A stretch of 33,339 nt of DNA. It comes from Ignavibacteriota bacterium. Its GTDB lineage: Bacteria; Bacteroidota; Ignavibacteria; Kapaibacteriales; UBA2268. The stretch is taken from NCBI GenBank assembly GCA_024636855.1, contig JAGXGG010000108.1:1-33339 (forward strand), written 5' to 3'. Of this stretch, positions 3,181-26,817 are shown piece by piece. Position numbers and translations under genes: made by a program. The notes under the pieces were generated by a model, which saw only the letters and a program-made list of their open reading frames with translations, did no database searches and was not told the origin of the DNA. Position 1 is the first letter of the stretch, and the number at the start of each line of letters is the position of its first letter.

Positions 3181-3795
3181 TTACAAACCCTTTACCATCC
3201 AATGATTAGTATGTTTTGTTTTTAGTTCATTGTACATAATTTCTTTCTTCGTAAAATCACTTTCTAATTGAAATCGATAAACTTTAATTGGAATTGCATT
3301 TGGATATATTGCAATAAATTTAGCAAAGTGTTTAATTGCCTCACTCTTTTGACCAGTCGCAAGTAGTGATTCACCTTTATATATAGCTACCATTTTTGGG
3401 ATTACTCCAAATAAGGTATCCATTTCTTCTGAAAGTGTATTTATTAGCCATAACTGTAAATCAGGATTAGATAACTTTGGGTTACGAGTCGCTTCTGAAA
3501 CAAAATATTGATAAGTTGTAAATAAAAAGAACAAGTGCTCATTAGGTATATTTCCGGCCTCATTAAACATTTTATATAAATTAACGGTTTCTTCTGTTAT
3601 ACTATTTTCATCACTTTGAAGTGACTCATTGAATAAATTATCAAGTAACTTCAATATTCTTGTGTCTGAAGAATCAATTATGGTTTTACTTTTTAATTCC
3701 TTATATTCTTCTTCTGTAGCAACTACAACGTCTTGTATTTGTGAAAAAACAGAGCAAGTTGTCAAAAAAATAATTAAAAATATTCTGAATTTCAT
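3181..3795 (-). CDS. Secreted hypothetical protein with TPR-like helices
   Basis: 204 residues. The start MKFRIFLIIFLTTCSVFSQ is a Sec signal peptide with probable cleavage near FSQ. The Cys at residue 14 (LTTC) is a poor lipobox, so I do not call a lipoprotein. The mature part is helical and charged. Residues about 130-175 (GVIPKMVAIYKGESLLATGQ, then KSEAIKHFAKFIAIYPNA) have the small/large residue spacing of a tetratricopeptide pair, suggesting a periplasmic interaction role. It starts only 11 nt after the stop of the PLP enzyme gene on the same strand, so it is probably co-transcribed with it. A 151-nt gap separates it from the ABC operon downstream; I saw no convincing terminator or promoter there. 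No specific family recognised. Confidence 0.7.
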   Translation of the reverse strand: MKFRIFLIIFLTTCSVFSQIQDVVVATEEEYKELKSKTIIDSSDTRILKLLDNLFNESLQSDENSITEETVNLYKMFNEAGNIPNEHLFFLFTTYQYFVSEATRNPKLSNPDLQLWLINTLSEEMDTLFGVIPKMVAIYKGESLLATGQKSEAIKHFAKFIAIYPNAIPIKVYRFQLESDFTKKEIMYNELKTKHTNHWMVKGL

Positions 3796-3806
3796 TTGTT
3801 TCCCTT

Positions 3807-5054
3807 TTATACCTTTTCCAAAGCTTGGCTAACATCCCAAATTAGATCGTCTATATTTTCTACACCGATTGATAACCTAACAAGACTCGAAGTTACTCCT
3901 ATACTCTTCAAATATTCTGGTTCAACTCCCGCATGGGTCATAGTGCTTGGGTGTTCTGCCAAACTCTCAGTGCCACCTAGGCTAACTGCTAATGTCATTA
4001 GTTTTAATGAGTTCAAGAAGATAAATGCTTCTTTCTCACCACCAACAATGTCGAAAGCTACCATTGCTCCAGGTCCATCATGTTGTCTTTTGTATAATTC
4101 ATAGCTAGGACTTTCCTCGTCAATCATTCCCAAATAATGGACTTTTGTAACCTTTGGATGTACATTCAAAAATTTGGCAATTTCAATTGCATTCTGTTGT
4201 TGCTGTTCCATTCTCACTTTCAAAGTTTCCAGACTTCTCATTAATAACCAACCAGTCCAAGGTCCAGCCATATTTCCAAGAAAGGTTCTTAGAGTTTTTA
4301 CTCTTTTCATTGGACCTTTGTACCCAAGAACTGCACCAGCTATTACATCACTATGTCCACCAATATATTTTGTAGCTGAGTATACAACTAAGTCCGCACC
4401 AAATCGAAGTGGGTGTTGCCAAAGTGGGCCCATATACGTGTTATCAACTACTGTCAGTACTTGTTTTTCCTCAATACTATAATGGTTTTTTAGTTCATTT
4501 ATCATCTGCAAATCAACTATTGCGTTAGTAGGATTAGCAGGTGTTTCAACAAAAATCATAGCTACTTTATCAGAAAAACCTTTTTCCTCAATTTTTGCCA
4601 TTATTTCTTCTTTAGTTGCATTTGGCTTAAACCCAACTGTATCAATACCATATTTTGGAAGAAAGTGGTGAATAAAGTGATCAGTTCCACCATAAAGTGG
4701 GCTACTATACACTAACACATCACCAGGACTCAAAAACTCCATAAATACAGTCGTAATTGCTGACATTCCACTTTCAAATACTGCACATTCTTCTGCTTTA
4801 TCCCATAAGCAAAGTCTGTTCTCTAGTATTTCCAAATCAGGATTATTTATTCGACTGTAGATTAGTCCTAACTCTTCGTCTTGACCTTTCTCTCGTAAAC
4901 CATAAGCTACTTCGAAAAATGCTTTTCCTTCTTCTGCATTCTTAAAAACAAATGTAGACGTTTGGAAAATTGGACATTTCAAGGAGCCTTCTGATAACTC
5001 TGGCTTATAGCCGTATGACATCATAAGACTTTCAGGTTTCATATTTCTATTCAT
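3807..5054 (-). CDS. Cys/Met-metabolism PLP-dependent enzyme (cystathionine gamma-synthase / methionine gamma-lyase family)
   Basis: 415-residue fold-type I PLP enzyme of the trans-sulfuration family, cytosolic and normally tetrameric. Lys229 in YSATKYIGGHSDVIAGA is the expected Schiff-base lysine. Asp204 (VVDNTYMGPLWQHPL) would contact the pyridine nitrogen. Tyr66/Arg68 (IYSRINNP) are the residues that bind cofactor phosphate across the dimer, and Tyr121 in PLYGGTDHF stacks on PLP. SLGGTESLAEHPSTMTHAGV (358-377) is the C-terminal substrate-carboxylate region. Classical methionine gamma-lyases carry Cys after PLYG; here it is Gly, so synthase versus lyase activity cannot be settled from sequence. 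Divergent from the TonB receptor, with 137 nt between start codons, and followed by the secreted hypothetical. MNRN at 5054 is the natural start; a second Met lies at codon 5. Confidence 0.88.
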   Translation of the reverse strand: MNRNMKPESLMMSYGYKPELSEGSLKCPIFQTSTFVFKNAEEGKAFFEVAYGLREKGQDEELGLIYSRINNPDLEILENRLCLWDKAEECAVFESGMSAITTVFMEFLSPGDVLVYSSPLYGGTDHFIHHFLPKYGIDTVGFKPNATKEEIMAKIEEKGFSDKVAMIFVETPANPTNAIVDLQMINELKNHYSIEEKQVLTVVDNTYMGPLWQHPLRFGADLVVYSATKYIGGHSDVIAGAVLGYKGPMKRVKTLRTFLGNMAGPWTGWLLMRSLETLKVRMEQQQQNAIEIAKFLNVHPKVTKVHYLGMIDEESPSYELYKRQHDGPGAMVAFDIVGGEKEAFIFLNSLKLMTLAVSLGGTESLAEHPSTMTHAGVEPEYLKSIGVTSSLVRLSIGVENIDDLIWDVSQALEKV

Positions 5055-12183: not shown

Positions 12184-13551
12184 TTGAGAAAAGTGAAACG
12201 TAAATTTAAAAATATCTTAAAACACCTCAGTATAATAGCTGTGCTGTTTTTTATTGCCATTGCAGGCATACTTGTTTTAGTATTTAATATATTCTCAGAG
12301 CCATCTGACGAATTTGCTAAGAAGAACTCTACAGAAACTTTCTCTCCTTTTGTTAGGACAGGTGCTAACACTATAGTCGATAGGAAACAACACGAACTTA
12401 ATCAAGCTAAAAAAATGGCTGGTAATAAGGAATTTTCTATTGTCCGTACGAGTACTGATTTCAATAAAGACATACCTTTTACTGTCGATAAAAAAGCTGG
12501 TGTTGTTTACAAAAAGCAATATAACGGTCGTCGTATCAATATATGCGTAACTGGTGTTGACTCACGTATGGGTAGTAATTTCAAACATGCTGATGCTAAT
12601 CATGTTCTGTCTATACTTATAGATAAGGGTGAAATAGAAATCACATCTATTCCTCGTGATACTTACGCCGATGCAGGTATGCCCGACACAACTACACAGA
12701 ACATAATAGCAGTACTGCGACCTGCAAAAGGTAGAAGAGCCTATCTGAATCGTATAGCTCAGATTGCTGAGTTAGACACTATTCATTACTTTATGGAATT
12801 TGGTTTCTCTCAAGCTATGGGTATAATAGAGTGGTTGGGCTATGATAATTCGAAGCAAACCCTACAAGTGCTACGCTCTCGTAAAGTATTCGGTGGGGGA
12901 GATTGGCAACGAACATACAACCAAGGGAAGTTTATGAAGCAAGCTATGCTAAAAAGCTTCAATAATTATGGTGGTATTTTCGGTGATTTGGTACTGATGG
13001 GTGGACTTTCACTAACAGAGACTAATCTGACTTCTGGGACCCTAAATGCTATTCTCAAAAAGCTGAAAGAAAGCGAATTTGGTCAATCAGATGATGTAAC
13101 TCTACGTGTCCGTCCCGAATTCCCTTATGAATACAAGAACTTCGATTTCAATGACAAAGAAATAATAGCTCATATGAGCGCTAAGGTCGAGCAATACTCT
13201 GGTACAAAACCCGGAACTAGCGTATCAACCGATACACTAGTAATAAATGAATTGAGAAAGGCAATAAACAAAGCTGTGCGTGCTGATAGTACTGGACAAG
13301 CAAACCTAACTATCAACACATTGAAGACTTATTTTGAGCAAAAAGCTTGGTTGCAGATAACTGATAAAAACACCCGTCACCATTACCGTGAGACAATGAA
13401 AAATCTGCTGATGAGTGCTTATAATAAGAAGAAAGACCCAGATAGTGCTGAGAAAGTGCAAAAACTTATAGAACAAGAATCAAATCTATTTCTTAATAGT
13501 AAGAATAGATCTAATCACGAAAATGAAACGGCTCAGGAGTTAATACAATGA
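12184..13551 (+). CDS. LytR-CpsA-Psr (LCP) family protein
   Basis: 455 residues. A short basic N-terminus and one transmembrane helix (about 15-36) are followed by an extracytoplasmic domain. LCP hallmarks are present: INICVTGVDSRMG (118-130, the LGxDxR-like motif), HADANHVLSILID, and EITSIPRDTYAD (152-163) with the pyrophosphate-binding Arg-Asp. LRSRKVFGGGDWQRTYNQ (230-247), then GKFMKQAML, matches the Arg-rich ring. LCP proteins transfer polyprenyl-phosphate-linked glycans to cell-wall or capsule acceptors; in diderms their acceptors are less clear. The C-terminal 100 residues are charged helix with no known domain. Start is TTG at 12184 or GTG at 12193; no ATG is usable. The stop overlaps the next ATG (ATGA), so sixA is translationally coupled. 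Confidence 0.8.
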   Translation: MRKVKRKFKNILKHLSIIAVLFFIAIAGILVLVFNIFSEPSDEFAKKNSTETFSPFVRTGANTIVDRKQHELNQAKKMAGNKEFSIVRTSTDFNKDIPFTVDKKAGVVYKKQYNGRRINICVTGVDSRMGSNFKHADANHVLSILIDKGEIEITSIPRDTYADAGMPDTTTQNIIAVLRPAKGRRAYLNRIAQIAELDTIHYFMEFGFSQAMGIIEWLGYDNSKQTLQVLRSRKVFGGGDWQRTYNQGKFMKQAMLKSFNNYGGIFGDLVLMGGLSLTETNLTSGTLNAILKKLKESEFGQSDDVTLRVRPEFPYEYKNFDFNDKEIIAHMSAKVEQYSGTKPGTSVSTDTLVINELRKAINKAVRADSTGQANLTINTLKTYFEQKAWLQITDKNTRHHYRETMKNLLMSAYNKKKDPDSAEKVQKLIEQESNLFLNSKNRSNHENETAQELIQ

Positions 13552-14039
13552 AAAAAATATTCATCGTTAGACATGCTAAATCGGATTGGGATAATAACCT
13601 GATTGATTTCGAGAGACCGCTAAACGAAAGGGGACACCAAGATGCTCCCATAATGGCGGAACGAATCAAATCCCTTGGCGAAAGACCTGATCTGATAATA
13701 TCAAGCCCAGCTATGAGAGCCAAAACTACTGCCAAGTACTTCGCCGAAGTTTTCGAATATGCTCCAGAATGCATAAAATATCACCACGAAATATACGATG
13801 TGGGGCAAAAATTCACTTTAGAAATGCTTACAAAATTATCTCCAAAAATAGAATCAGTAATGGTATTCGGGCATAATCCTGACCACAGCTATCTAGCTAC
13901 GTACCTTAGCAATGAGAACATTGGTAATATGCCAACTTGCTCAGTAGTTGGTGTTGAAATGCAAACTGAACATTGGATAGATATTAAAAATGCTGAATCC
14001 AAACTCATCTGCTATGAGTACCCTAAGAAGGGTGAGTAG
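13548..14039 (+). CDS. SixA-type histidine phosphatase
   Basis: 163-residue histidine phosphatase. RHAKSDWD at 8-15 contains the nucleophile His9. Arg58 in SPAMRAKTTA and His109 in VMVFGHNPDHS complete the phosphate pocket. Short length and the RHAKS/GHNP motifs fit the SixA branch, which removes phosphate from phosphohistidine proteins such as HPt or PTS components; the partner here is unknown. The start codon overlaps the LCP stop by 4 nt, so the two are expressed together. No terminator is seen after the stop. The foldback repeat cluster begins 30 nt downstream. Confidence 0.88.
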   Translation: MKKIFIVRHAKSDWDNNLIDFERPLNERGHQDAPIMAERIKSLGERPDLIISSPAMRAKTTAKYFAEVFEYAPECIKYHHEIYDVGQKFTLEMLTKLSPKIESVMVFGHNPDHSYLATYLSNENIGNMPTCSVVGVEMQTEHWIDIKNAESKLICYEYPKKGE

Positions 14040-14068
14040 GTCTTACCCCCCTCACTCCAGTCTTACAC

Positions 14069-14094
14069 CGTCACTCTGAGCGAAGCGAAGAGTC
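14069..14094 (+). repeat. Foldback repeat unit 1 (CTC-arm type, GAA triloop)
   Basis: CGTC then arm ACTCT (14073-14077), GAGCGAAGCGA, arm AGAGT (14089-14093), C. Folds into 5 bp, tandem G.A/A.G, GC/GC, GAA triloop. The inner GCGAAGC is the known extra-stable DNA mini-hairpin sequence. Identical over 26 bp to the complement of unit 11. Confidence 0.95.
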
Positions 14095-14124
14095 CACAAA
14101 AACACCACTGTCATTGAGCGTGCC

Positions 14125-14151
14125 CGTCATACTGAGCAACGCGAAGTATCC
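14125..14151 (+). repeat. Foldback repeat unit 2 (TAC-arm type, AAC triloop)
   Basis: CGTC, arm ATACT (14129-14133), GAGCAACGCGA, arm AGTAT (14145-14149), CC. Same fold as unit 1 with both arms changed in step. First part of tandem copy 1. Confidence 0.93.
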
Positions 14152-14163
14152 AAACGACTCTTT

Positions 14164-14198
14164 GGACTCTTCATTCACTGCGTTCTTTCAGAGTGACG
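14164..14198 (-). repeat. Foldback repeat unit 3 (long form, GCA triloop)
   Basis: Read on the minus strand: CGTC, arm ACTCT, a 19-nt centre beginning and ending GA, arm AGAGT, CC. The plus-strand arms are at 14166-14170 and 14190-14194. The centre can pair again through a second G.A step and an AC/GT stem around a GCA loop. Confidence 0.85.
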
Positions 14199-14220
14199 TG
14201 CTTTCATTCAGAGGAAGCCC

Positions 14221-14247
14221 CGTCATACTGAGCAACACGAAGTATCC
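14221..14247 (+). repeat. Foldback repeat unit 4 (TAC-arm type)
   Basis: Copy of unit 2 with one change in the inner stem (GCAACAC), which breaks one C-G pair. Arms ATACT (14225-14229) and AGTAT (14241-14245) are intact. Confidence 0.9.
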
Positions 14248-14259
14248 ATACGACTCTAT

Positions 14260-14294
14260 GGACTCTTCATTCACTACGTTCTTTCAGAGTGACG
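14260..14294 (-). repeat. Foldback repeat unit 5 (long form, GTA triloop)
   Basis: Copy of unit 3 in the second 96-bp tandem copy. The only difference inside the hairpin is in the loop, GCA to GTA, which keeps the GNA triloop pattern. Arms at 14262-14266 and 14286-14290. Confidence 0.85.
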
Positions 14295-14316
14295 TGCTTT
14301 CATACAAAGGAAGCCA

Positions 14317-14343
14317 AGTCATAATGAGCAACGCGAAGTATCC
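14317..14343 (+). repeat. Foldback repeat unit 6 (TAC-arm type, partly decayed)
   Basis: Starts AGTC rather than CGTC. The left arm is ATAAT against AGTAT, leaving one mismatch. The inner GCAACGC stem-loop is intact. Start of the third, partial 96-bp copy; lies 67 nt before the nuclease gene. Confidence 0.85.
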
Positions 14344-14410
14344 ATAAAAACTCCTCAATGTTTAAAACTCCTCAAAAATAATTATTCCTTTTCTTTTTAT
14401 TTTAAGAAAA

Positions 14411-14698
14411 ATGAAAAGTGCATACACATATATACTAGCATCTAAAAAACATGGTACTCTCTATACAGGTGTTACTTCTGACTTATACTCTAGAGTTTGG
14501 CAACATAAGAATAATGCTTTCAAAGGTTTTACCTCTAAGTATAATGTTAAAACACTTGTTTTCTATGAAGAGTATGGCAGAATAGAAGATGCAATTATGA
14601 GAGAGAAGCAGATAAAAGGTTGGATTCGTAAAAAGAAAATTGATTTAATTGAATCTGTAAATCCTAATTGGGATGATTTGAGTCAAGAGTGGTATTAG
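14411..14698 (+). CDS. GIY-YIG nuclease-domain protein embedded in the foldback repeats
   Basis: 95 residues, one bare GIY-YIG domain. YTYILASKKHGTLYTGVTSD (5-24) holds the two hallmark segments with Tyr7 and Tyr18-Thr-Gly20. Arg28 and His32 (SRVWQHK) follow. Glu65 in MREKQIKGWIRKKKIDLIE is the metal-binding catalytic Glu, and Asn84 lies in VNPNWDDL. All expected active-site residues are present and the length is normal for this subfamily of small stand-alone proteins, whose targets are not established. Many GIY-YIG enzymes (Slx1, UvrC, homing nucleases) cut branched or specific DNA. Six hairpin repeats lie directly upstream and five downstream, hence the proposal that it acts on them. The ATG at 14411 follows an AT-rich spacer; no strong ribosome site or promoter was seen. 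Confidence 0.9.
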   Translation: MKSAYTYILASKKHGTLYTGVTSDLYSRVWQHKNNAFKGFTSKYNVKTLVFYEEYGRIEDAIMREKQIKGWIRKKKIDLIESVNPNWDDLSQEWY

Positions 14699-14712
14699 AC
14701 TTTGAGCTAATT

Positions 14713-14748
14713 TGTCACTCTGAATGTAACGAAGTGGAATGAAGAGTC
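14713..14748 (+). repeat. Foldback repeat unit 7 (long form, GAA triloop)
   Basis: TGTC, arm ACTCT (14717-14721), a 21-nt centre beginning and ending GA, arm AGAGT (14743-14747), C. The innermost bases AACGAAGT form AC/GT around a GAA loop. Starts 15 nt after the nuclease stop codon. Confidence 0.8.
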
Positions 14749-14763
14749 TTTTCATTTTAACTT

Positions 14764-14790
14764 AGACTCTTCGCTACGCTCAGAGTGACG
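14764..14790 (-). repeat. Foldback repeat unit 8 (CTC-arm type, GTA triloop)
   Basis: Minus strand: CGTC, ACTCT, GAGCGTAGCGA, AGAGT, CT. Differs from unit 1 only in the middle loop base (GAA to GTA), again GNA. Plus-strand arms at 14766-14770 and 14782-14786. Confidence 0.95.
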
Positions 14791-14802
14791 TGAGTTTTAC
14801 CT

Positions 14803-14851
14803 AGACTCTTCACTTCCCCTTCGCTTTGCTCAGGGTCGTTCTGAATGACAG
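14803..14851 (-). repeat. Foldback repeat unit 9 (composite, CCC-arm type)
   Basis: Centre on the minus strand is ACCCT, GAGCAAAGCGA, AGGGG (plus-strand 14816-14836): a third arm version (CCC/GGG) around the same GA-GC...GC-GA centre, with an AAA loop and one end mismatch. It is nested in remnants of another unit: GACTCTTC on one side and the complement of TGTCATTC on the other. Confidence 0.8.
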
Positions 14852-14861
14852 TGATATTCCT

Positions 14862-14900
14862 CGTCATACTGATAACGCCGCAGGCGTTAGAAGTATCTCC
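14862..14900 (+). repeat. Foldback repeat unit 10 (TAC-arm type, long inner stem, GCA triloop)
   Basis: CGTC, arm ATACT (14866-14870), GA, inner stem TAACGCC, GCA loop, GGCGTTA, GA, arm AGTAT (14892-14896). The inner stem is a perfect 7 bp. This is the clearest example of the arm/G.A step/stem/GNA-loop plan. Confidence 0.95.
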
Positions 14901-14924
14901 TTTTGTTAGTTTGTTTCTTTTTTG

Positions 14925-14952
14925 GAGACTCTTCGCTTCGCTCAGAGTGACG
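14925..14952 (-). repeat. Foldback repeat unit 11 (CTC-arm type, GAA triloop)
   Basis: Exact reverse complement of unit 1 over 26 bp (14927-14952). Together they form the outer inverted pair of the cluster. Arms at 14928-14932 and 14944-14948. Confidence 0.95.
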
Positions 14953-15011
14953 TGGGGATTTTCAATACCCCCAAAAAAAGAATTCACATACGTTAATATC
15001 TGGCTTTTGTT

Positions 15012-15031
15012 TTGTTAAGTTTCCTTAACAA
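15012..15031. repeat. Short perfect inverted repeat upstream of the giant gene
   Basis: TTGTTAAG (15012-15019), 4-nt TTTC, CTTAACAA (15024-15031). It could be an operator or a weak hairpin; a T-poor follow-up makes a strong terminator unlikely. The rest of 14953-15143 is AT-rich sequence in which I see no gene. Confidence 0.45.
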
Positions 15032-15143
15032 TCTATAATAATTTTTAATTTATTTATCTTCGGAACTGTAGTAATAACAACGACATCAACTCAAAATCAG
15101 TACTAATACCTATAAAAAAACAGAAAATTAATTAATGCAGCGA

Positions 15144-15175
15144 CTTGCTTTTTCCGATTAAATCATTTATTCTTG
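15144..15175 (+). promoter_or_regulatory. Candidate promoter of the giant surface-protein gene
   Basis: CTTG at 15144-15147, exactly 20 nt, then TATTCTTG at 15168-15175 (seven of eight bases of TAnnTTTG). The predicted start near 15181 gives a leader of about 100 nt. Confidence 0.4.
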
Positions 15176-15204
15176 AAAGTGTCATAATAGAAAAAATAGA
15201 AAAA

Positions 15205-15222
15205 GTGTAAGCATTATTACAC
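15205..15222. promoter_or_regulatory. Palindrome in the leader of the giant gene (possible operator)
   Basis: GTGTAA, 6-nt GCATTA, TTACAC: a perfect two-fold symmetric site typical of a dimeric repressor or activator operator. It lies 58 nt before the start codon and about 25 nt downstream of the predicted transcription start. I cannot name the regulator. Confidence 0.4.
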
Positions 15223-15269
15223 ATAAGTCTATATAAATAATGAAAAATAATATTTATAAATTAATTACT

Positions 15270-15276
15270 AGGAGAG
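15270..15276 (+). promoter_or_regulatory. Ribosome binding site of the giant gene
   Basis: AGGAGAG, 3 nt before the ATG at 15280 (5 nt counted from the end of AGGAG). It is one of the few strong Shine-Dalgarno sequences in the window and fixes the start of this protein. Confidence 0.6.
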
Positions 15277-15279
15277 CTT

Positions 15280-18200
15280 ATGTCTAGATTTACTAGATTT
15301 ATCCTCACATTAGCGGTCATATCTATCGTCAGTTTTGTCGAGATATTTGCCGCAACCGCTCCGAGCAGCCAAGCTCGGTACATTTCCTTCTCCAATATAA
15401 CGGCTAATACAGTCGATATAACTATGGTTAGAGGAAATGGTAATAATAGAATAGTTGTTGTTTCTACAACTGCAATTACAGATACTGCCACTTTTGGTGT
15501 TGAGTATACTGACCAAGGTGGAAGCTTTACTGATGGTGTATCTATAATCACTGGTAGTGATGATAGAGTAGTTGATGTGCTAACTGGTTCTCAGTGGCAA
15601 TCAACAATCAGTAATCTTTCTGGTGGTCAGACTTACTATGTAAAAGTATTTGAGTACAACAAAGACGGTGCTACACCTATAACGGCTTACAATCAAGGCA
15701 CTGGCTCGAACAACCCACGTAGTTTTACTACTGCGGCTGGTCCTGTTGAGCCGCCTACTAACTTAGCTCTTGTTAACCCAGCTACAGCTACTACTGCTGA
15801 CCTTTCTTGGGCTGATGGTAATTCTCCATCTGATGGCTTTATATTTACTCTATGGGTAGATCAAGATGGCGAAGGTAATGGTGATGAAACTTATGAAGAG
15901 AATAGTGCTACTGTTTCTCCTTATGTAGAACTTGATTTAGGTTTTACAACTGGATTTGATTTGACTGACCTAGTCGGCCCTTCTGATTACAAATATGAAG
16001 TATCTGCTTATATAGGTAATGATGATTCGGAGTCTGCTTATGGATATTTCTATACTCCTTTAGATAACACCCCCCCTAATGTTTCTTCTATCACACTAAC
16101 TGACGAAGCAAATAATGGTGGAGCAAATGATAATGTAATATTCGAAGACGACGTTAACGTTACTTTCACTGTTACTTTTAGTGAAGCAATGAAAACTTGG
16201 CTAACTCCAACTTTTGCTTTTTCGAACACAACTGGTTTAACTTACGTAACTGGTTCTTGGAATAATACAGTTTTCACTGCTACATTCTCAGTTACTGATA
16301 ATAATGAATATTACGCTAATGAAGATATCACAATTACTAATGCTGAAGATTTAGCAGGTAATTTGATTACTGCTGGTACTAATGTTGCTGCTGACGTCTT
16401 CACTATTGATAATGTAGATGGTGATCTTTCTTTATTCGAATATGCTACTGCTGGCACAAATGTGGATCAACCGACCTGTAAATCAGGTGTTAATGGTGAT
16501 GTAGTAGAATTTGAAATCACTCTATTTGAAGATGGATATAATTCAGGAAGTGTAGTTAACTCAAACTTCGTAGTCGAAGCTGAAGGACAAACAAATTCTA
16601 ATATTATAACTTTCTCATCTACAGGAACAGGTGGCTCTGCTACTTATCTATTCACTACAACTTTAAATGGTACTCCTTCTGAAGATGTGTATGATATTAC
16701 TATCACTTTCACAGATGAAGCTGGTAATGAAGTTGTTCAAACGGAAACGAGTGTCTTTAGTATTGATAACACTGCTCCTGTTCTTACAATAGATGATCCT
16801 ATCACTAATGCAGTTGTAAACGACTCGAAAGTAATAGATTTCACAGTTGTAGAAGATGGTTGTGGTACTGATATTACAGAAGCATCTGTAGATGGTGGTT
16901 CTAACTGGACTACAATTACTGATGGAAACAATACACTTGGTGATATAGCTGAATTCGGACCTTTAGCAGATGGTGCTTTTACTTTAACACTTAGAACTAC
17001 TGACGGTGCAGGTAATACTGACACTGAAACAGTAGACTGTGAAAAAGATGCTACTGCTCCATTATTATCAAGTATTGATATTAGTCATGCTACTATTAGT
17101 ACAAATGATCATGGTCAGACATTCACAATTGATTTCAATTTCAATGAACCGATGGATGAGACAGTTAATCCTACAATAACTATAACGGGTAATTCTACTA
17201 TTTCTGCTACTCCAACTCTCGCGGGATGGACAAATAGTCAAAAATATTCTACTACTTGGGGTACAATAGACGCTTTCACTACTCCTGAATCTAATGACGA
17301 TATGGATATAGTAGTTAGTGGTGCACAAGATCTTGCTCAAGATGTTGCAAATGTAATGTTACAAGATAATGCAACTGGTCTTAATATTCTTGATATTGAT
17401 ACAGAAATTCCAAATGTTGCATTTGATGATGATGGTACTACTACTCCGGGAGATGGCTCTTGTGTAGATGGAACAGAGCAGTTGGAAATTACTTTTAGTG
17501 ATGATAGCCCTTATTCAGGTGTTGCGTACGTCATTGCTAAAATTGATGGTTATGCTGGTCAGTATACAGCCTTTTCAGATGGCTTTACGCCTTATTCACC
17601 TTTTCTTATAATTGACCTTCCAAGTTTTAGCACTGTTCCAGATGGGAGTTTTGATGTATTATTAATTGTATCTGATAATGTAGGTAATTTAGATACGGCT
17701 TCAAGAACATACATCAAAGACGTAACTGGTCCAGTATTATCTAATTTGACTGTTACTAGTTCTAGTTGTGTTAATAACGGCTTAAACAAAATCACTTTCA
17801 CTTTCGAAGGATATGATGCTTGTTCTGGTTTCGATGAAACAGATGTAGTTGCGACTGCTACTACAGCAAGTAATCCTACTTTTGTTGAAAAAAGTGGAAA
17901 TGGAACTTCAACTGTCCCTTATGTTTTCACTTATGAATTAGATATAGCTGACGCTAATGGCGATTATGATATAACTATAAATGCAGATGATAATTTAGGA
18001 AACGCAACTTCACCAGCACTAACAGGTACAGGTGTTTTCACAGTTGATAACACAGCTCCTACATTAGGTGCTTTTACTATGGTAAGTTCTACTTGTGTAA
18101 ATAATGGATTAGAAAGAATCGAATTTACTTTCACAGGTTATGATGAAGGTTGTGGTACTTTTGATGAAACAAATTTATCTGTTTCTTGTACTACTGCTAC

Positions 18201-21200
18201 TCAACCATATTTTGTTGATAAAACAGGTACTGGTACAAGTGGCAATCCTTATGTTTTCACATATAAAATAAATATTAATGACACTGAACAAGGTTATGAT
18301 ATTTCTGCTTTTGCAACAGATGCTGCAGGTAATATCTCACCTAACGTTTCACCTGCTGGTGATGAATTCGACGTCGATAATACAGCTCCAGTTATCAGTG
18401 CTCTATCAGTAACTCCAGGTTGTAATAATGCTGGCGATGTAGTAGACATAACATTTACTATTACTGAAGCTGGTTGTGGAACTGTAGATGCAACAAATGC
18501 AACAGTATCTGGATTACCAACTGGCGATGGTGTTTTATCAGCACCGACAATCACTGGAGCTGGGCCTTATAATTTTGCTTATACTTATACAATAGGTAGC
18601 AATGACGCAGAAGGAACTTTCACAGTTCTTGTTGATGCTGACGATGATGCTGGAAATGATGCTACTCAAGTAGGTAGTTCTCCAGCTTCTGATTTCTCAA
18701 TCGACAATACAAAACCAGTATTCAGTGCTTATACAGTAACTGGAGCTGCTGGCTCTTGTCTTAAAGTAGGAAGCACACTAGAATTTACTGTAGATGTAGT
18801 TGAAGCTGGTTGTGGTACTTTTGATGAAACTGATTTTAATATCGGTATTACACCGGTACCAACTAATAGTTTAGTTGCTGATGGCAGTAACCCTGTTAGT
18901 GGCTCTGGTACTTATAAGTTCACATTGCTATTAGACGTTCTGGACACAGAAGGTGCTTACAATCTTACTTTTGATGGAACAGATGTTGCAGGTAATGTAG
19001 CAGACCAATATGTTCCAGCTGGAACTGAATTTACTTTAGACAAAACTGCTCCTGCATTTAGCGCTATTAGTATTAGTCCTTCTTGTATTAAAGGTGGTAG
19101 TACAGCTACTTTGACTTTCACTGTAACTGAAGCTGGATGTGGTACATTTAACAAAGACGATATAACAATTACTGATGATGTAACTACTGCTACAAACACT
19201 TGGGCTTATGTTTCAGGTAGTGGTGCAGGTGTTTATACTTATCAATTACCTATAGTAGCTGGTGACCCAACTGGTCTAGTAACAGTAACAATAGCTGCAA
19301 CAGATGATGCAGGTAATACAGCTACTCCAGCTACGCCTACATTCTCTATTGATAATCAAGGCCCAGTACTAAGTGCCTTGACAGTAACTCCTTCAGCAGC
19401 TGGTGGTACAACTACTAGCGTGGATATTTCATTTACAGTTGCTAGTAACGGATGTTCTTCATTCGATGCTTCTTCAGTAGTTTATACAGTAACAGGCCCA
19501 GCGGCTTTACAAAGTGCGATAACTACTCCTCCAGTTGATCAAACTGGTGGTGTTTGGAGATCAACATTAGCTATCTCTAATTCGGATCAATCCGGTAACT
19601 ACCATATTTCAGTAGTAGCCGCTGACGAATTGGGTAATCCATCTAATACACTTGACCCTGCGGGCGTTGAGTTAGTAATAGATAATACTCCTCCACTAGT
19701 CGCTAGTCAAACTGTAAGCAAAGTATTGCTTAACAGAGCTGATGATGATGGTCTTATAGATGAATTCTACATAGAAGTTACATATAACGAACCATTGAAC
19801 ACTTCTATAATACCTACATTAAGTTACCAGATTGGTGCTGATCCTACTTCACCAGTTGCAGCGCTTACTCAAATTAGTTCAGCATTCGTTGCAGCTTCAA
19901 CTACTACTATCAGATATACATATAATCTAAATAAAAATTCTAATTTAGATATGAGAGGTATTGGCATAATTGTAGATGGTGCAAGAGATGTTGCTGGTAA
20001 CAATCAATCTAGTGCTAATACTAAGAGTAATCTATTCGGTATAGATTTTATAGCACCTTACTTACAAAGTTTAACTGTTAATAATCCAGCTAATGGAGTA
20101 ATAACAGATACTACAACAACTGGATTAGAATTAGTATTTGATTTCTCAGAGACTATGATTAATACTTCTGCACCTACTATTTCATTCGAAACAGGTAGTG
20201 TACCGAATAACGCAACTCTAGCGCAAATACTTTCAACAACAGCATTCCCTAGTATTTCGAAATGGAATCTTAGTGATGTTTACACAGCGAAATTTACAAT
20301 AAATGGAACTTTTGGTTTAGAAACTGATGATGTTGCAGTTGGTATATCTAACGCGACTGATTTGGCAGGTAACCCATTCCCAGGTTCTAACGAATCGCAA
20401 GTATTCGATGTGGATACTAGAGAGCCAGGTTGTGTTAGTATAACTATGGACCCAGTTGCTCCTACTGTAATAGTTGCTGACCTAGATTTTGATGTTTCTG
20501 TGAAAATGGATCAAACATTAGATGTTGGAGTTACTCCTACTATAGCATTTACTAATAGTAATGCTAATTACTCTATTTCTGGAGGAGTTTATACTTCTTC
20601 GATAGATAATACGAATGATACATATAGTTTCACTGTGACTCATGACGGAACTCAAGAAAACGTAACAGAGACAATGTCTATAAGCGGTTTCAAAGATACA
20701 CAAGGTAACCCTCAGGCAGTTGCTTGTACTACTTCATTCGACGTAGATACTAAGTTACCAGAAATCGTATCTATCACAGTAAGTGATGATAAGATTTGTA
20801 TGGACGACAATACAGATGCTTACACTATTGCTATAGTATTTGATGAAGAGATGGGTGCAACAGCACCAGTATTAACTTACGTCTCTGATCAAAGTGCTAT
20901 ATTTACAGGTGTTACAGGCGGATGGACAACAACAACGATTAATAATGATACATATACATTTACTTCAACTTTAGGTTTAACAGCTGGTGTAGAAGCAATC
21001 GATGTTGATATTCAAGTATCTGCTGCTAAGGATGTCCTAGGCAACACTATGGATGCTGATATTACATCTGGTGTAGATAAATTTAGTATAGATACTAAAG
21101 CACCTACAGTAACTGGAATCGCTTTCAACCCAATCCCTTCTAACGCTTTTGGTGTTAATAGAAGTAATATTGGTGCTGGTGGATTCAACGTAGTTGTAAC

Positions 21201-24200
21201 TTATGACGAAGCAATGAGCAGTTTACCTGCTCCGAATATAGCTTTCACACCTGGTACTACTAATAGTGGAACAGTTGGGGCAGCTTTAGCAGTTGGAACA
21301 GGAAGTTGGACTTCAACTAATGTTTACACACAACCATACACTGTGAACAATGCTATTGTTGATATAGAAGATTTAACAGCAACAGTGACATTGGCAGCAG
21401 ACGCATGTGGAAATGTACAAGCAAGTTCAACACCTGTGACTACATTTGCAATCGACTTAATAGCTCCTACATGTGAGGGTATTGCTGCTGAATATAGCGT
21501 GATTTATGAAGGTCAATTATTACAAGAAGTATATATCGATTTCAGTGAAGAAATGTCAACTTCAGTAACACCTACAATTAAATTTGCTAATAGTTCTGCA
21601 TTTAATATTACACCTAATTTCTGGTTAAATACAAATACAGATTATAAGTTTACAGCTGTTCACAGTGGTGCTCAAGAAGAAATAGACCCAGAGACAGTTT
21701 CACTAGACATAGTAACTACAACACCAACTGACTTAGCTGGTAACCCGATTTTGGTTGCTACTTGTTCAGATGACTTTGAGATTGATACTAAAAAGCCAAC
21801 AGTTGAAAGTGTAGCTTTCACACCAACTAAGGTGATAGGAAGTACAACTACATTTAGTGTAGCAGTTGAATTCAACGAAGATATGGGAGCAACAGTTCCT
21901 ACATTAGCATTTAGTGCTGGTGCTGCTGCATTCACACCTGCAGCTAGTGGTTGGGCAGGCAATACTTATACATTCAACTACACAGTAGCTGATGAAGATG
22001 TAGAAGAAACAGGTGTAACTGTTACAATAAATACGGCTGAAGATATAGCTGGTAACGTAATGGCAGCACACACATCATCTGAAACATTCAATGTAGATCA
22101 AGTAGAGCCGACAATTGTTAGCTTAAGCGTTTCTGACGCATTGATAAACAAAGCTGAAGCGAATAATGGATCATACACATTCACTGCTGCTGCTACTTTT
22201 AACGAAGCAATGAATACAAGTGCTAATCCTACTATTGCATTTAGCCCAGATGTAACATCTGGTTCAGCTTCATTGACATTACAAGCTGGAACTAATCCTG
22301 CTTGGTCTGTTGGTAACACAGTAGCTACTTGGACTTATACAGCAAGCGACCAAAGCGTTGCAATCCAAGACATTGATATTACTATCACTGGTGGCGAAGA
22401 CGCATGTGGAAATGCAACAGACTATACTTCACCTACAGGTGTATTTGCTGATAAATTCAGCATAGATACAGAAAATCCGACAATAGCATTTGATGGCTCT
22501 ACGCCAGGTATTTCTGATTGTGTAAACGGAACTGAAGCTATTGAGTTCACTGCTAATGATGGAAGTGGATTTAGTGGAATCGACGAAGTTCAAGGAAGAG
22601 TTAATGGCGGTACTTTTGCTGCATGTACAACTGGTGTACTAATAAACGAACTAGATGGATGGCCTGGAACTGACGGTTCTATAACTGTTGAGTTAAAGGC
22701 ACTAGATTTGGCAGGAAATACAACTACTATAACTAGAGCATATACTGCAGACGTAACTGCACCGGTAATTTCACTAGTTAACTTTGCAAACACTTGCGTA
22801 ACAACAGGCGACGTGATTAATATTTCATTCACAATTACTGAAACAGGTTGCGGAACTATACTAGCTAATAATATTGATGTTTCTGGTTTCCCTAATGGAA
22901 ATGGAGTATTATCACAATTAACTATAACTGGAAATTCTCCTTATGTAGTTACTGCTACTTATACAGTTGGTTCAACTGATGCACAAGGTGTTTATGACAT
23001 TACATTTGATGTTACAGATGATGCTGGTAACGATGCAACTCCTTCTGTGAATAACTCTGCCTTCACAATTGACAAGACAGCACCTAGTTATTCAGTAAAC
23101 ACTCCACCAACACCAACATGTACTAATAAGAACACTAATGTTCAATTAGTAATAAATAGTGATGATGATACTTTTGGTTGTGGATCTTATGGTGCAAGTA
23201 ATATAACGGCTTCTACTAACTTAGGCGCTGCTACTGTAACTGGTACTGGTCCTTATGTTATAACAGTTGACTTATCAGGAACAGATAACACTGATGATGA
23301 TTTATACAATATTGATATAGTAATGACTGATGCTGCTGGAAATGTGAATAATCAAACGATTACTAACGCATTTACACTTGACAATACAGCACCTGCGTTA
23401 AGTAATCTTAATGTAACAAGTGCTACTTGTTTAAATGACGGATCTGAAAAATTAGTAATTACATTTGAAGTTGAAGAAGAAGGATGTGGATCATTTAGTT
23501 CAAGTAACTTAACAGTTACTACTGGACTATTTGATGACTCATCTCCAACTATAACTAATACTGGTACAGGTACTAATGCTGACCCTTACATATTTACATA
23601 CAAATTTGATATAGATAATGGTAATGGCGACGCAGATGGCGATTATGACATAACAGTCGATGCAAATGATGCTGCTGGTAATAATTCGACTCAACTTTCA
23701 CCTATTGGTGTAGAGTTCACAGTTGACAACACTGACCCTGATATTGCTTTTGATGAACCATTAACAGGTGCTACTGTCAATGGCTCAAAAGAGATATTGT
23801 ATACAGCAGATGATAATGATGGTTGTGGTATAGATTATACTGAAGTCAGAATAAATTCTGGGACTTGGGTAGCTATATCTAGTAGTGGTAATTACTTAGG
23901 TGACTTAAGTGAATTCAACTCATTAGGAGATGTTGGGTTTACACTTAACATTAGATCTTTTGATATTGTTGGTAATATGGGAACAAGTAGTGTTTCGTTA
24001 ACTAAAGATGCTACAGCACCTACAGTAACTTCTGTTACTCCAAGTGATGCATTGATATCAATTGCTGATGGTGGTTCACCATTTACAGTTGCAGTTAATT
24101 TCATCGAGGGTATGGATCAAACGGTTGATCCAACTGTTACATTGACAGCAAACGGAACTGTAGCAAATACTAATACTGGTGGTTCTTGGACTTCAAGTAC

Positions 24201-26817
24201 TCAGTTTACAGCTACATTCGGTAATATCAACGGTGCTTCAGTTGAGGAAATTGCTGACTTAGATGTTACGGTTTCGGGAGCAAAAGATGACACAGAAGAT
24301 ATTGGAAATACTATGACGCTTCAAACAATAGTTGATAAATTCAGCATTGATACAAAAGCACCAACATGTAGTACAATGACAAACAACAACCCAGACATTT
24401 ACGAAAATGATTTGGATGTAACAGTAACTGTAGTCTTCTCAGAAGCTATGTCTGCTAGTCCACTTCCTACATTCAATATAACTGGAACAACTAAACTAAC
24501 ACCGGGTGCAACTAATTGGACAAATCCAACTACATTCACTCAGGTATTTACACATACAGGATTTGAAGAAGAAACAACAGCTAGTTTCCCAATAGGTAAT
24601 ACACCTACTGATGCAGCTGGTAATCAATTAGCATCATCATCTTGTACTACAAGTGTAGCGATTGATACACGTAAACCAATTGTTCAGAATATTGTATTCT
24701 CAACTAATGATATTAATGAGAATACAACTACATTCTCTATTGATGTTACTTTTGATGAGAATATGGATAATGGTGTAACTCCTACAGCGGTAGTTAACAA
24801 TGTTAATGCAGCTACAATATTTACACCTCTAGGTTCATCTGGATGGGTTGGAAATGTTTATACATTTGACTATTCTGTAGCTGACTTAAATGTTAATGAA
24901 TTGGATGTTGATGTTAAAATAGAAAACGCAAAAGATGTGGCTGGTAACGTAATGGCTACTAAGACATCAGTTCAGACTTATGATATCGATCAAGTTGCTC
25001 CTGTTGGAACTATTGATTTAGCATCTAGTCAATCAGACCCTGCGTTCTTTGGTCCTATTAACTTTGCACTGACATTCAATGAAGATGTTACTGGATTAGT
25101 TGTTGGTGACTTAGTACTATCTGGTACTGCTGGAGCCACTACACTAAATCTAACTGGAAGTGGTTCAACTTATAATGTAGCAGTAACTGGTATGAGTACT
25201 ACAGGAACGGTTATTATTAATTTAGCTTCAAATAAAGTAATCGATGCAGCTGGAAATAATAATACTACAACAATACTTACAGACAACAGTGTTGATTACG
25301 AAATTACTGGGTTTACAACAGTAGGTATAGGTAGTGGAATTGAACCTACAACATTATCATCTTTAGTTGATACAGATGGTGAAGAAGTATTAAACTTCGA
25401 CTTTAAAGTAACAGATGATGGTTTAACTCCTCTAGTTGATGGATTAGCTACTAAGATAAAAAGTATAACAATTTCTCAAGGTAATGGTAATGACATTGGT
25501 AATTGGACTACTATCATAGCTGGTGCAAAATTAACTGATGGACCTAATACTGTTTATGCAACTACGATTAATTCAAATTCAATTATATTTAGTGGATTAG
25601 CAAACGGTGCAGGTCAAATTGGTGAAGTTGCAGATGATGCAAATAAAATATATACTTTGAAAGTATGGTTATCTTCATCACCTTCTGGTGAAATCGATAA
25701 TAAAAACTTAGCTTTCAAAGTAGATAGAACTTCATTTGACCATGATAATACAGGATCTTTATTCGTAAATGGTGCTGGACCCGTTGTTGAATCTGGTGAA
25801 ACTAAAAATGCGATTGAAGTTATTGCAACTAAGTTGTTATTTACAACTACACCAACTAGTACTGTAGTAAACACAAATACTACTTTCGTAGTAGATGCAA
25901 CAGATGAAAATGGTAATAGAGATGTTGATTATGGGCCTTCTACGGTTACTTTAACACCTAATTTATCTACGATATCCAATGGTAGTGGTAGCATGACTAG
26001 TGGTACACTAACGTTGAATACAGTTCAGTTTAGTACAGCATTTGAAAATGTTAATGTAACTGCTTCAAATAGTGGCGCTCTTACAAATGGAGTTAGTTCT
26101 GACTTCAACATTAAAGAAGCTGAACCAGCCTCAATTACTGGTTTGTCAATTAATCCTAGTAATTCTTCATTCGTAATTAACTTTATTAATCCAAGTAGTA
26201 AAAACACTTTGATTCTTGCTAAACAAACGAATAGCAAAATTATAAGTTATTCAAATGAAGCAGGTATGGATAATGAGACATCTTGGTCAGCAAATTCTTA
26301 TTATGGCTTATCATCAACTCCTTCAGATGCATCGACATTTGTTATTTATGCAGGTAGTGGTGTAAATACAATTACAATGACTGGTTTATTGAACAATCCT
26401 GAACGTAGATATTCAATAGTAGCTTATGCTTATGCTGGAGCTCTAAACTCAGGTGTTCAAAACTTTAATGAAACTGAAACTACTGCAAGCGATAGAACAC
26501 AACCGAAAGGGACTAATTATTCTGAAAATATAGCAAAAGGATTCAGTCTTGGTATTGATAATATCACTCCTCAACCTGCTAATCTGAATAATATTGTTTC
26601 ATTACAAGTTGAGACAATTGAAGATATGCCGTTGACATTAGAACTATATGATAGTAAAGGACAAAAAATGATGACATTATTTGAAGGAAGAGATTTCAGT
26701 GCTGGTGAAACTCCATTCGAGTTTAACTTAGCTAACACTATTTCTTCTGGTCAACATTTCTTACGATTAACTGGTAACGGTCACGTAGTGATTGCACCTA
26801 TGATGATTGTAAAATAG
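15280..26817 (+). CDS. Giant multi-Ig-domain secreted/surface protein with T9SS sorting domain
   Basis: 3,845 residues. A Sec signal (MSRFTRFILTLAVISIVSFV, cleavage near EIFA) leads into two FN3-like domains (about 30-150 and 155-262). Then come about 28 Ig-like modules of 95-125 residues (263-3340), joined by IDNTAP-type linkers, nearly all with a DxxGN turn near the end. Three subtypes are seen: 'SEAM' modules (TVTFSEAM...), paired-Cys modules (C...EAGCGTFDETD) and short GCGxD/SGxD modules. Residues about 3345-3520 are a different beta domain (SSLVDTDGEEVLNFDFKV). A Big_1-like domain (3517-3617) and an FN3-like domain (3618-3745) follow. The last 90 residues (NITPQPANLNNIVSLQVETI, LELYDSKGQKMMTL, GQHFLRLTGN, MMIVK) are a type A T9SS sorting domain. 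Likely an adhesin or surface-layer/matrix protein; no enzyme domain seen. Own promoter and terminator, so monocistronic. Confidence 0.93.
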   Translation: MSRFTRFILTLAVISIVSFVEIFAATAPSSQARYISFSNITANTVDITMVRGNGNNRIVVVSTTAITDTATFGVEYTDQGGSFTDGVSIITGSDDRVVDVLTGSQWQSTISNLSGGQTYYVKVFEYNKDGATPITAYNQGTGSNNPRSFTTAAGPVEPPTNLALVNPATATTADLSWADGNSPSDGFIFTLWVDQDGEGNGDETYEENSATVSPYVELDLGFTTGFDLTDLVGPSDYKYEVSAYIGNDDSESAYGYFYTPLDNTPPNVSSITLTDEANNGGANDNVIFEDDVNVTFTVTFSEAMKTWLTPTFAFSNTTGLTYVTGSWNNTVFTATFSVTDNNEYYANEDITITNAEDLAGNLITAGTNVAADVFTIDNVDGDLSLFEYATAGTNVDQPTCKSGVNGDVVEFEITLFEDGYNSGSVVNSNFVVEAEGQTNSNIITFSSTGTGGSATYLFTTTLNGTPSEDVYDITITFTDEAGNEVVQTETSVFSIDNTAPVLTIDDPITNAVVNDSKVIDFTVVEDGCGTDITEASVDGGSNWTTITDGNNTLGDIAEFGPLADGAFTLTLRTTDGAGNTDTETVDCEKDATAPLLSSIDISHATISTNDHGQTFTIDFNFNEPMDETVNPTITITGNSTISATPTLAGWTNSQKYSTTWGTIDAFTTPESNDDMDIVVSGAQDLAQDVANVMLQDNATGLNILDIDTEIPNVAFDDDGTTTPGDGSCVDGTEQLEITFSDDSPYSGVAYVIAKIDGYAGQYTAFSDGFTPYSPFLIIDLPSFSTVPDGSFDVLLIVSDNVGNLDTASRTYIKDVTGPVLSNLTVTSSSCVNNGLNKITFTFEGYDACSGFDETDVVATATTASNPTFVEKSGNGTSTVPYVFTYELDIADANGDYDITINADDNLGNATSPALTGTGVFTVDNTAPTLGAFTMVSSTCVNNGLERIEFTFTGYDEGCGTFDETNLSVSCTTATQPYFVDKTGTGTSGNPYVFTYKININDTEQGYDISAFATDAAGNISPNVSPAGDEFDVDNTAPVISALSVTPGCNNAGDVVDITFTITEAGCGTVDATNATVSGLPTGDGVLSAPTITGAGPYNFAYTYTIGSNDAEGTFTVLVDADDDAGNDATQVGSSPASDFSIDNTKPVFSAYTVTGAAGSCLKVGSTLEFTVDVVEAGCGTFDETDFNIGITPVPTNSLVADGSNPVSGSGTYKFTLLLDVLDTEGAYNLTFDGTDVAGNVADQYVPAGTEFTLDKTAPAFSAISISPSCIKGGSTATLTFTVTEAGCGTFNKDDITITDDVTTATNTWAYVSGSGAGVYTYQLPIVAGDPTGLVTVTIAATDDAGNTATPATPTFSIDNQGPVLSALTVTPSAAGGTTTSVDISFTVASNGCSSFDASSVVYTVTGPAALQSAITTPPVDQTGGVWRSTLAISNSDQSGNYHISVVAADELGNPSNTLDPAGVELVIDNTPPLVASQTVSKVLLNRADDDGLIDEFYIEVTYNEPLNTSIIPTLSYQIGADPTSPVAALTQISSAFVAASTTTIRYTYNLNKNSNLDMRGIGIIVDGARDVAGNNQSSANTKSNLFGIDFIAPYLQSLTVNNPANGVITDTTTTGLELVFDFSETMINTSAPTISFETGSVPNNATLAQILSTTAFPSISKWNLSDVYTAKFTINGTFGLETDDVAVGISNATDLAGNPFPGSNESQVFDVDTREPGCVSITMDPVAPTVIVADLDFDVSVKMDQTLDVGVTPTIAFTNSNANYSISGGVYTSSIDNTNDTYSFTVTHDGTQENVTETMSISGFKDTQGNPQAVACTTSFDVDTKLPEIVSITVSDDKICMDDNTDAYTIAIVFDEEMGATAPVLTYVSDQSAIFTGVTGGWTTTTINNDTYTFTSTLGLTAGVEAIDVDIQVSAAKDVLGNTMDADITSGVDKFSIDTKAPTVTGIAFNPIPSNAFGVNRSNIGAGGFNVVVTYDEAMSSLPAPNIAFTPGTTNSGTVGAALAVGTGSWTSTNVYTQPYTVNNAIVDIEDLTATVTLAADACGNVQASSTPVTTFAIDLIAPTCEGIAAEYSVIYEGQLLQEVYIDFSEEMSTSVTPTIKFANSSAFNITPNFWLNTNTDYKFTAVHSGAQEEIDPETVSLDIVTTTPTDLAGNPILVATCSDDFEIDTKKPTVESVAFTPTKVIGSTTTFSVAVEFNEDMGATVPTLAFSAGAAAFTPAASGWAGNTYTFNYTVADEDVEETGVTVTINTAEDIAGNVMAAHTSSETFNVDQVEPTIVSLSVSDALINKAEANNGSYTFTAAATFNEAMNTSANPTIAFSPDVTSGSASLTLQAGTNPAWSVGNTVATWTYTASDQSVAIQDIDITITGGEDACGNATDYTSPTGVFADKFSIDTENPTIAFDGSTPGISDCVNGTEAIEFTANDGSGFSGIDEVQGRVNGGTFAACTTGVLINELDGWPGTDGSITVELKALDLAGNTTTITRAYTADVTAPVISLVNFANTCVTTGDVINISFTITETGCGTILANNIDVSGFPNGNGVLSQLTITGNSPYVVTATYTVGSTDAQGVYDITFDVTDDAGNDATPSVNNSAFTIDKTAPSYSVNTPPTPTCTNKNTNVQLVINSDDDTFGCGSYGASNITASTNLGAATVTGTGPYVITVDLSGTDNTDDDLYNIDIVMTDAAGNVNNQTITNAFTLDNTAPALSNLNVTSATCLNDGSEKLVITFEVEEEGCGSFSSSNLTVTTGLFDDSSPTITNTGTGTNADPYIFTYKFDIDNGNGDADGDYDITVDANDAAGNNSTQLSPIGVEFTVDNTDPDIAFDEPLTGATVNGSKEILYTADDNDGCGIDYTEVRINSGTWVAISSSGNYLGDLSEFNSLGDVGFTLNIRSFDIVGNMGTSSVSLTKDATAPTVTSVTPSDALISIADGGSPFTVAVNFIEGMDQTVDPTVTLTANGTVANTNTGGSWTSSTQFTATFGNINGASVEEIADLDVTVSGAKDDTEDIGNTMTLQTIVDKFSIDTKAPTCSTMTNNNPDIYENDLDVTVTVVFSEAMSASPLPTFNITGTTKLTPGATNWTNPTTFTQVFTHTGFEEETTASFPIGNTPTDAAGNQLASSSCTTSVAIDTRKPIVQNIVFSTNDINENTTTFSIDVTFDENMDNGVTPTAVVNNVNAATIFTPLGSSGWVGNVYTFDYSVADLNVNELDVDVKIENAKDVAGNVMATKTSVQTYDIDQVAPVGTIDLASSQSDPAFFGPINFALTFNEDVTGLVVGDLVLSGTAGATTLNLTGSGSTYNVAVTGMSTTGTVIINLASNKVIDAAGNNNTTTILTDNSVDYEITGFTTVGIGSGIEPTTLSSLVDTDGEEVLNFDFKVTDDGLTPLVDGLATKIKSITISQGNGNDIGNWTTIIAGAKLTDGPNTVYATTINSNSIIFSGLANGAGQIGEVADDANKIYTLKVWLSSSPSGEIDNKNLAFKVDRTSFDHDNTGSLFVNGAGPVVESGETKNAIEVIATKLLFTTTPTSTVVNTNTTFVVDATDENGNRDVDYGPSTVTLTPNLSTISNGSGSMTSGTLTLNTVQFSTAFENVNVTASNSGALTNGVSSDFNIKEAEPASITGLSINPSNSSFVINFINPSSKNTLILAKQTNSKIISYSNEAGMDNETSWSANSYYGLSSTPSDASTFVIYAGSGVNTITMTGLLNNPERRYSIVAYAYAGALNSGVQNFNETETTASDRTQPKGTNYSENIAKGFSLGIDNITPQPANLNNIVSLQVETIEDMPLTLELYDSKGQKMMTLFEGRDFSAGETPFEFNLANTISSGQHFLRLTGNGHVVIAPMMIVK

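Follow-up and report, generated by a model that had tools for sequence, protein, structure and literature searches.

An array of eleven foldback units enclosing the gene of a small GIY-YIG nuclease was found in the window (the whole analysed stretch of 33,339 nucleotides, from a contig of the 3.10-Mb draft genome of an Ignavibacteriota bacterium), and the pairing of this nuclease with CGTC-type REPs was real and recurred over many phyla (Table 1). The array probably belonged to a widespread family of REP mobile elements in which a GIY-YIG nuclease takes the place of a RAYT; the nuclease likely recognised the hairpins, and mobilisation of REPs by it was the best explanation, mobility itself being unproven. 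Shown were the bracketing of the gene by GTC hairpins, a bias in their orientation, covariation of the arms, a recurring GA/GA step with its GNA triloop, ends of the element lying at the tag, presence in some relatives and absence from others at one orthologous site, and a statistical association of nuclease residues 70–72 with arm base pairs 4–5.

Table 1. Hairpin units and nuclease gene of the array (window coordinates)
Feature	Coordinates	Strand	Remarks
Short REP unit 1	14070..14095	+	Arm ACTCT/AGAGT, loop GAA
Short REP unit 2	14126..14151	+	Arm ATACT/AGTAT
Long REP unit 3	14164..14197	-	Arm ACTCT/AGAGT; forms an inverted pair with unit 2
Short REP unit 4	14222..14247	+	Arm ATACT/AGTAT; inner stem with one mismatch
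Long REP unit 5	14260..14293	-	Inverted partner of unit 4
Short REP unit 6	14318..14343	+	Arm ATAAT/AGTAT (one mismatch); closest unit upstream of gene
GIY-YIG endonuclease ORF, 95 aa	14411..14698	+	Mid-array; candidate enzyme of the element
Long REP unit 7	14714..14749	+	Arm ACTCT/AGAGT; closest unit downstream of gene
Short REP unit 8	14764..14789	-	Arm ACTCT/AGAGT, loop GTA; forms an inverted pair with unit 7
Untagged unit 9	14814..14839	-	Arm ACCCT/AGGGG
Long REP unit 10	14863..14898	+	Arm ATACT/AGTAT, 7-bp inner stem, GCA loop
Short REP unit 11	14926..14951	-	Arm ACTCT/AGAGT, loop GAA; outermost of the units, with tag facing outward

The eleven units with their shared foldback plan (14070–14951), and the three versions of the outer arm, had been described in an earlier note, and all were present in the sequence as described: eight of the 11 were found by a script requiring at least two inner-stem pairs, and units 3, 4, and 5 were read directly in the sequence. 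Three things had been passed over in the note: the GIY-YIG gene lying among the units, the GTC tag, and the CGTC-REP superfamily, which was already known. GTC stood immediately 5′ of the arm in 10/11 units, reading CGTC in eight, TGTC in one, and AGTC in one; the untagged exception, unit 9, appeared by eye to be the inner part of a larger degenerate long unit on the minus strand (about 14804–14849). The unpaired tail was CCA in 6/11 units and CT or other in 5/11. The gene-less inverted hairpin pairs in the window spanned 72–89 bp, and the units closest to the gene on its two sides were +/+ and not +/-, which counted against the mobile-element reading. Just downstream of the array lay a 3845-aa ORF (15280–26817) in which similar segments were seen by eye to be repeated.

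Tyr, Arg, and Glu are the catalytic residues of the GIY-YIG superfamily. The 95-aa ORF matched PF01541 (E=4.1e-14) as its sole Pfam match, and thus did not encode a Y1 HUH tyrosine transposase; Y7, Y18, G20, R28, H32, and E65 were invariant among 20 aligned members, and N84 was present in 90% or more of them. Its AlphaFold2 model had a pLDDT of 94.9, with UPF0213 (1zg2, E=3.4e-4) as the top Foldseek match and Slx1 second (E about 0.02). The Pfam match, the invariant residues, and the model with its Foldseek matches together placed the protein in the GIY-YIG superfamily; an NCBIfam search of three proteins found no family. The titles of the Slx1 structures in the PDB describe action on branched DNA, and the occurrence of a branched-DNA nuclease among the nearest folds counted in favour of the mobile-element reading.

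A covariance model built from the seven short window units was searched over the 3.10-Mb draft genome, and, with 150 of 319 candidates scored, at least 31 matches had E<1e-3; seven of these were the training units (matching by construction), and at least 24 lay outside the array. The genome-mean density of such matches gave about 0.009 expected per 884 bp (the array span used for this estimate), and the seven matches in the array were therefore beyond chance. DNA folding of seven stretches of the window against shuffles upheld the described fold in part: two short units adopted it, no better than shuffles (z -0.46 and -0.45), and unit 10 folded well (z -3.6), but long unit 7 on its own took up a different structure (z +0.83), which counted against the mobile-element reading. 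Three inverted pairs beat shuffles, namely units 2+3 (z -2.9), units 7+8 (z -4.3), and a third pair (z -3.2). Such strong folding would also suit ordinary transcription terminators or RNA-stability elements, with the nuclease as an RNA/DNA-processing factor that uses them in regulation; in the same vein, REPs are proposed as RNA elements in the available part of PMC3733652, and other hairpins were seen by eye to occupy the same spacer in several relatives at the orthologous site described below. This explanation was considered quite improbable in view of the specific tag of the hairpins around the gene and their outward direction, an Rfam search of window positions 13500–15500 that gave no match, and an arm type that varied among paralogues of one genome and followed the enzyme (see below).

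The association of gene and hairpins was examined at loci picked by protein sequence alone with the pattern REKQ[IM]K[GS]W, a choice biased toward that subfamily; the best 80 of 572 confirmed protein matches were kept, giving 79 loci, 74 of them spread over 25 named phylum-level groups and five unassigned. Hairpins composed of GTC, 5-bp arm, loop, arm, and C were scanned for, with five permuted tags as controls. GTC hairpins numbered 253, 54, 43, 50, 83, and 134 in the bins 0–250, 250–500, 500–1000, 1000–2000, 2000–4000, and 4000–8000 bp from the gene, i.e., 6.49/kb within 250 bp compared with 0.34/kb at 4–8 kb (19-fold), and permuted-tag hairpins adjoining the gene amounted to 0.08–0.90 per kb. 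At least one GTC hairpin lay within 600 bp at 76/79 loci (20–31 with permuted tags), and at least two at 69/79 (0–12 with permuted tags). The base preceding GTC in 322 hairpins near these genes was T in 256, C in 34, A in 23, and G in nine, so that TGTC dominated, and CTC tails were more frequent than CCA. A scan with 6-bp arms had given no excess over permuted tags and was rejected, the paired arm being 5 bp before the GA step; the 5-bp rescan with the same controls yielded the excess. Lengthening the tag to four bases (GTCA) shifted the frame of the arm, and the hairpin signal was gone.

Gene and repeats were duplicated in tandem or nearby at four loci (L034, L050, L051, and L052), as might be expected if arrays expanded by recombination in gene-poor spacers and a small ORF lay there by chance; this already disfavoured hitchhiking was rendered very improbable by the 19-fold enrichment with flat permuted-tag controls over 79 loci and by the tie between residues and arm (see below). 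Locus L052 contained three gene copies in tandem, spaced about 420 bp apart. A second nuclease type with untagged flanking hairpins was seen by eye at L003:4596-4883, in the window's own genome, and at L168; the plan of these hairpins was arm-CT-GA-inner-GA-AG-arm (GCCTGAG...GAAGGC), and they may be another REP class sharing the core.

Units were present on both flanks of the gene at 58 loci, and a unit was missing on one or both sides at the other 21/79. The nearest pair was +/- at 35 of the 58 (14.5 if random), +/+ at nine, -/+ at eight, and -/- at six; the prevailing plan was thus the gene inside an inverted pair with tags outward. The tag-to-tag length of these 35 bracketed loci had a median of 407 bp (range 356–893) and fell within 356–522 bp in 32 of them.

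The core that the earlier note had taken as fixed recurred at these loci: near the 79 genes, GA/GA occurred in 108/118 hairpins with perfect arms and 11-nt loops, and a GNA triloop in 113/124 GA/GA units with at least 4/5 arm pairs, units within one locus not being independent in these counts. The triloops were GAA (53), GCA (29), GGA (21), and GTA (10), and the inner stem in the 124 units was GC/GC in 82 and AC/GT in 23. When GTC-N5-GA-N7-GA-N5 was sought with arms unconstrained, 5/5 arm pairing was found in 108/167 units less than 600 bp from the gene, falling to 13/45 at 0.6–2 kb and 6/100 at 2–8 kb.

Within the window alone there were few arm versions, and covariation was measured on 99 distinct units from other loci, selected without any demand on the arms, against 500 shuffles. 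The doubly changed cells (115, shuffled 43.6 ± 5.0) and the covariation score (0.449, compared with 0.232 shuffled and at most 0.160 slid) were both above all 500 shuffles, but pairs showing any change on both sides numbered seven, no more than in the shuffles (mean 6.5; 296/500 shuffles reached 7). The arms accordingly covaried, as had been claimed, by the first two measures and not by the third; 20.8% of the cells were unpaired, partly from long units out of register by eye. The covariation beyond shuffles among these distinct units bore on the concern over a few founder sequences, and the doubly changed cells and the score supported the earlier proposal that the folded strand, which may be DNA or RNA, is what selection or copying acts on. 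Because of the arm pairing, the GA/GA and GNA core, and these covariation counts, the fold first read in the window held across loci.

The hairpin arms were then compared with the nucleases. An arm type was assigned to 102 of 159 distinct nucleases, the other 57 genes having none by the rule used; the A-initial arm rule gave a type for 102/157 aligned proteins. After identity control, alignment columns 70, 72, and 71 best predicted arm positions 4–5, the two arm base pairs adjoining the GA step (0.39, 0.36, and 0.31), and among the remaining columns (77 in total) the next best reached 0.15 and the median was 0.00. Residues GW went mostly with arm CT (51/61), KW with CC or TC (13/13), and G at residue 71 mostly with GC (14/17); among GW proteins, residue 72 divided CT from CC arms (49:1 vs 2:9). 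Agreement at arm position 5 was found in 98/102 training loci, the residue classes having been defined after these data were seen. With a held-out rule fixed before fetching, 60 further places yielded 58 new proteins, of which 31 had an arm type: position 5 was correct in 27/31 (Fisher p=2e-4) and the GC rule in 31/31 with two positives only, for loci from the same phylum as the training set and genomes partly shared with it. The genes without an arm type (57/159, and 27/58 in the held-out set) counted against the mobile-element reading. The tree of these short proteins had too few supported branches, giving only two well-supported independent pairs, so that shared descent may underlie the tie between residues and arm. 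In the model, residues 70–72 lay where the E65 helix ends, ahead of the next helix; paralogues in one genome carried different hairpins, the arm type following the enzyme. From these sequence patterns, the nuclease probably reads the hairpin.

The behaviour of the pairs in other genomes pointed to mobility. At 16 of 18 places fetched from genome G072, gene-less inverted pairs of 82–128 bp were found, with few closely similar end types, flanks differing by eye, and ends at the same outward tags. At L050, homology between two gene copies ended within 3 bp of the downstream tag, and upstream both copies sat in repeat arrays. One orthologous site had a stretch spanning it in 17 relatives, with a full pair in four and no full pair in 13, one of the latter (L283) having a shortened tagged palindrome there. 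From the presence/absence and the ends at the tag we infer mobility, no insertion having been caught. A clean empty site was found in none of these 17 relatives and a target duplication in none of the 16 G072 pairs, both of which counted against the mobile-element reading. In the spacer orthologous to that of the window at L133 (genome G150, same genus), an assembly gap (N run) lay between two direct-repeat copies.

The bases outside inverted pairs were often mutually complementary (L260–L275 and L109), as if the pairs had been inserted at small palindromes; L109, the sole strong case of palindrome insertion, sat in an older repeat array. Outward flank complementarity exceeded shuffles in (i) the 16 G072 pairs (79 vs 58.4, p=0.0006) and (ii) 35 gene-bearing units (149 vs 107.2; maximum of 2000 shuffles 134), and was within the shuffle range for 77 gene-less pairs taken from the 79 loci (264 vs 238.7; maximum 276), as was the stem-length score of the 35 gene-bearing units (2.91 vs 2.25; maximum 3.09). 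Insertion at short palindromes was taken as a lead.

The nuclease gene occurred in 82/148 genomes of the phylum (E<=1e-6) and the strict REP pattern in 60/148, the reversed control giving one match in total. Any REP was present in 43/82 genomes with the gene vs 17/66 without it (p=8e-4); REP copy number was unrelated to the gene (at least five REPs in 13/82 genomes with it and 10/66 without). Profile search of these 10 REP-rich, initially gene-less genomes gave a partial match in two (E 3e-11 and 2e-10) and no nuclease in eight, which were mostly drafts, G052 being one contig; among all 12 REP-bearing, initially gene-less genomes so searched, partial matches occurred in G020 and G036 only. Six genomes (G121, G010, G133, G079, G009, and G052) had 13–77 REP matches and no GIY-YIG of the family by profile. 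The eight REP-rich genomes and the lack of a copy-number relation counted against the mobile-element reading. Loss of the enzyme leaving relic REPs is known for RAYTs; the REP-rich gene-less genomes would be explained by such loss or by another mover.

REPs without the gene were thus common, and in G148, of the same genus as the window, REPs stood at the window's site and nuclease genes on other contigs. Both facts would fit a homing-type passenger, whose nuclease cuts REPs spread by something else so that repair copies the gene into arrays, the REPs being landing site and not cargo; the tie between enzyme and arm suits such a target-specific cutter equally well. This was held to be unlikely, though the least unlikely of the alternatives, since the usual plan of one gene in one inverted pair with tags outward resembles a self-contained element, and since gene-less pairs terminate at the same outward tags.

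Under the favoured reading of a mobile REP family run by the nuclease, the autonomous unit would consist of two inverted GTC hairpins, tags outward, enclosing a small gene whose product of about 95 aa is hardly more than a nuclease domain, and the gene-less inverted pairs would be its dispersed non-autonomous copies. The nuclease would bind the ends of the hairpins and cut them where the DNA is single-stranded or extruded, leading to copying or movement of the unit; it would act in trans on gene-less pairs, and new copies would land preferentially at short palindromes. A bolder proposal, to which we gave an even chance, was a new class of autonomous DNA element (356–522 bp in 32/35 loci) over some 25 phyla, in which a lone GIY-YIG domain of about 95 aa would recognise the hairpin ends of its element both from their shape (the sheared GA step and the GNA loop) and through a code formed by amino acids 70–72, and which would be the source of CGTC REPs and insert at short palindromes. 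If they move DNA, such elements would count, to our knowledge, as some of the smallest autonomous mobile elements and as the first to depend on a GIY-YIG domain alone. A widespread family of bacterial repeats may have its missing mover in this nuclease; with the gene bracketed by hairpins and a recognition code that matches them, the question of the CGTC-REP transposase comes down to a simple test with a protein of 95 aa and short oligonucleotides.

In REP/RAYT systems and REPINs, GTAG REPs are served by a Y1 HUH transposase. The units described here were alike in having small palindromes that flank the gene of a dedicated enzyme, together with dispersed gene-less inverted pairs, but the enzyme was a GIY-YIG protein instead of a tyrosine transposase and the tag was CGTC instead of GTAG. 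GIY-YIG homing endonucleases have the same catalytic fold and possibly spread selfishly; the present protein differed in consisting of the domain alone and in being encoded between two hairpins that match it. At L050, a KW-type enzyme was flanked by GTCATTCC...GGAATCC units, which we take to resemble dRS3. The dRS3-like hairpins accompanying the KW-type nucleases of L050 and L052 read as fully paired with no GA/GA step, and from this pattern a KW-type nuclease is predicted for dRS3 in dRS3 hosts. UPF0213 and Slx1 (PDB 1zg2, 1ywl, 6seh, and 7cq4) shared the fold of the window nuclease. Among the matches listed from open-access papers (no preprints), searched by titles and abstracts, there was none linking GIY-YIG to REPs.

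The closest comparison was with CGTC-tagged REPs, reported in five phyla including Bacteroidetes (Di Nocera 2013, PMC3733652). In the available part of that paper, these REPs seem to have no dedicated transposase, no RAYT or other IS200 transposase of their hosts is flanked by CGTC REPs, and Neisseria dRS3 is equated with CGTC-1; that part says nothing of a GA/GA step or a GNA triloop. As described in that part, their stem is 8–9 bp and their loop 4–5 nt, whereas here 5+2 bp surrounded GA/GA with a 3-nt loop, agreement depending on how GA/GA is counted, and most of their tails fit CCA, as compared with 6/11 in the window and the commoner CTC near the 79 genes. The paper, to the same extent, names no transposase, whereas here a GIY-YIG gene was bracketed by the units. 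Head-to-head pairs were common to both, the +/- pairs here occurring in the window, around genes, and in G072; the tag, given as CGTC, TGTC, or CCTC in many (PMC3733652, same part), agreed with that of the window units, as did its position at one end, the A-T first pair, and the short unpaired tail. The window units thus largely fit CGTC-tagged REPs, with stem, loop, and tail agreeing in part.
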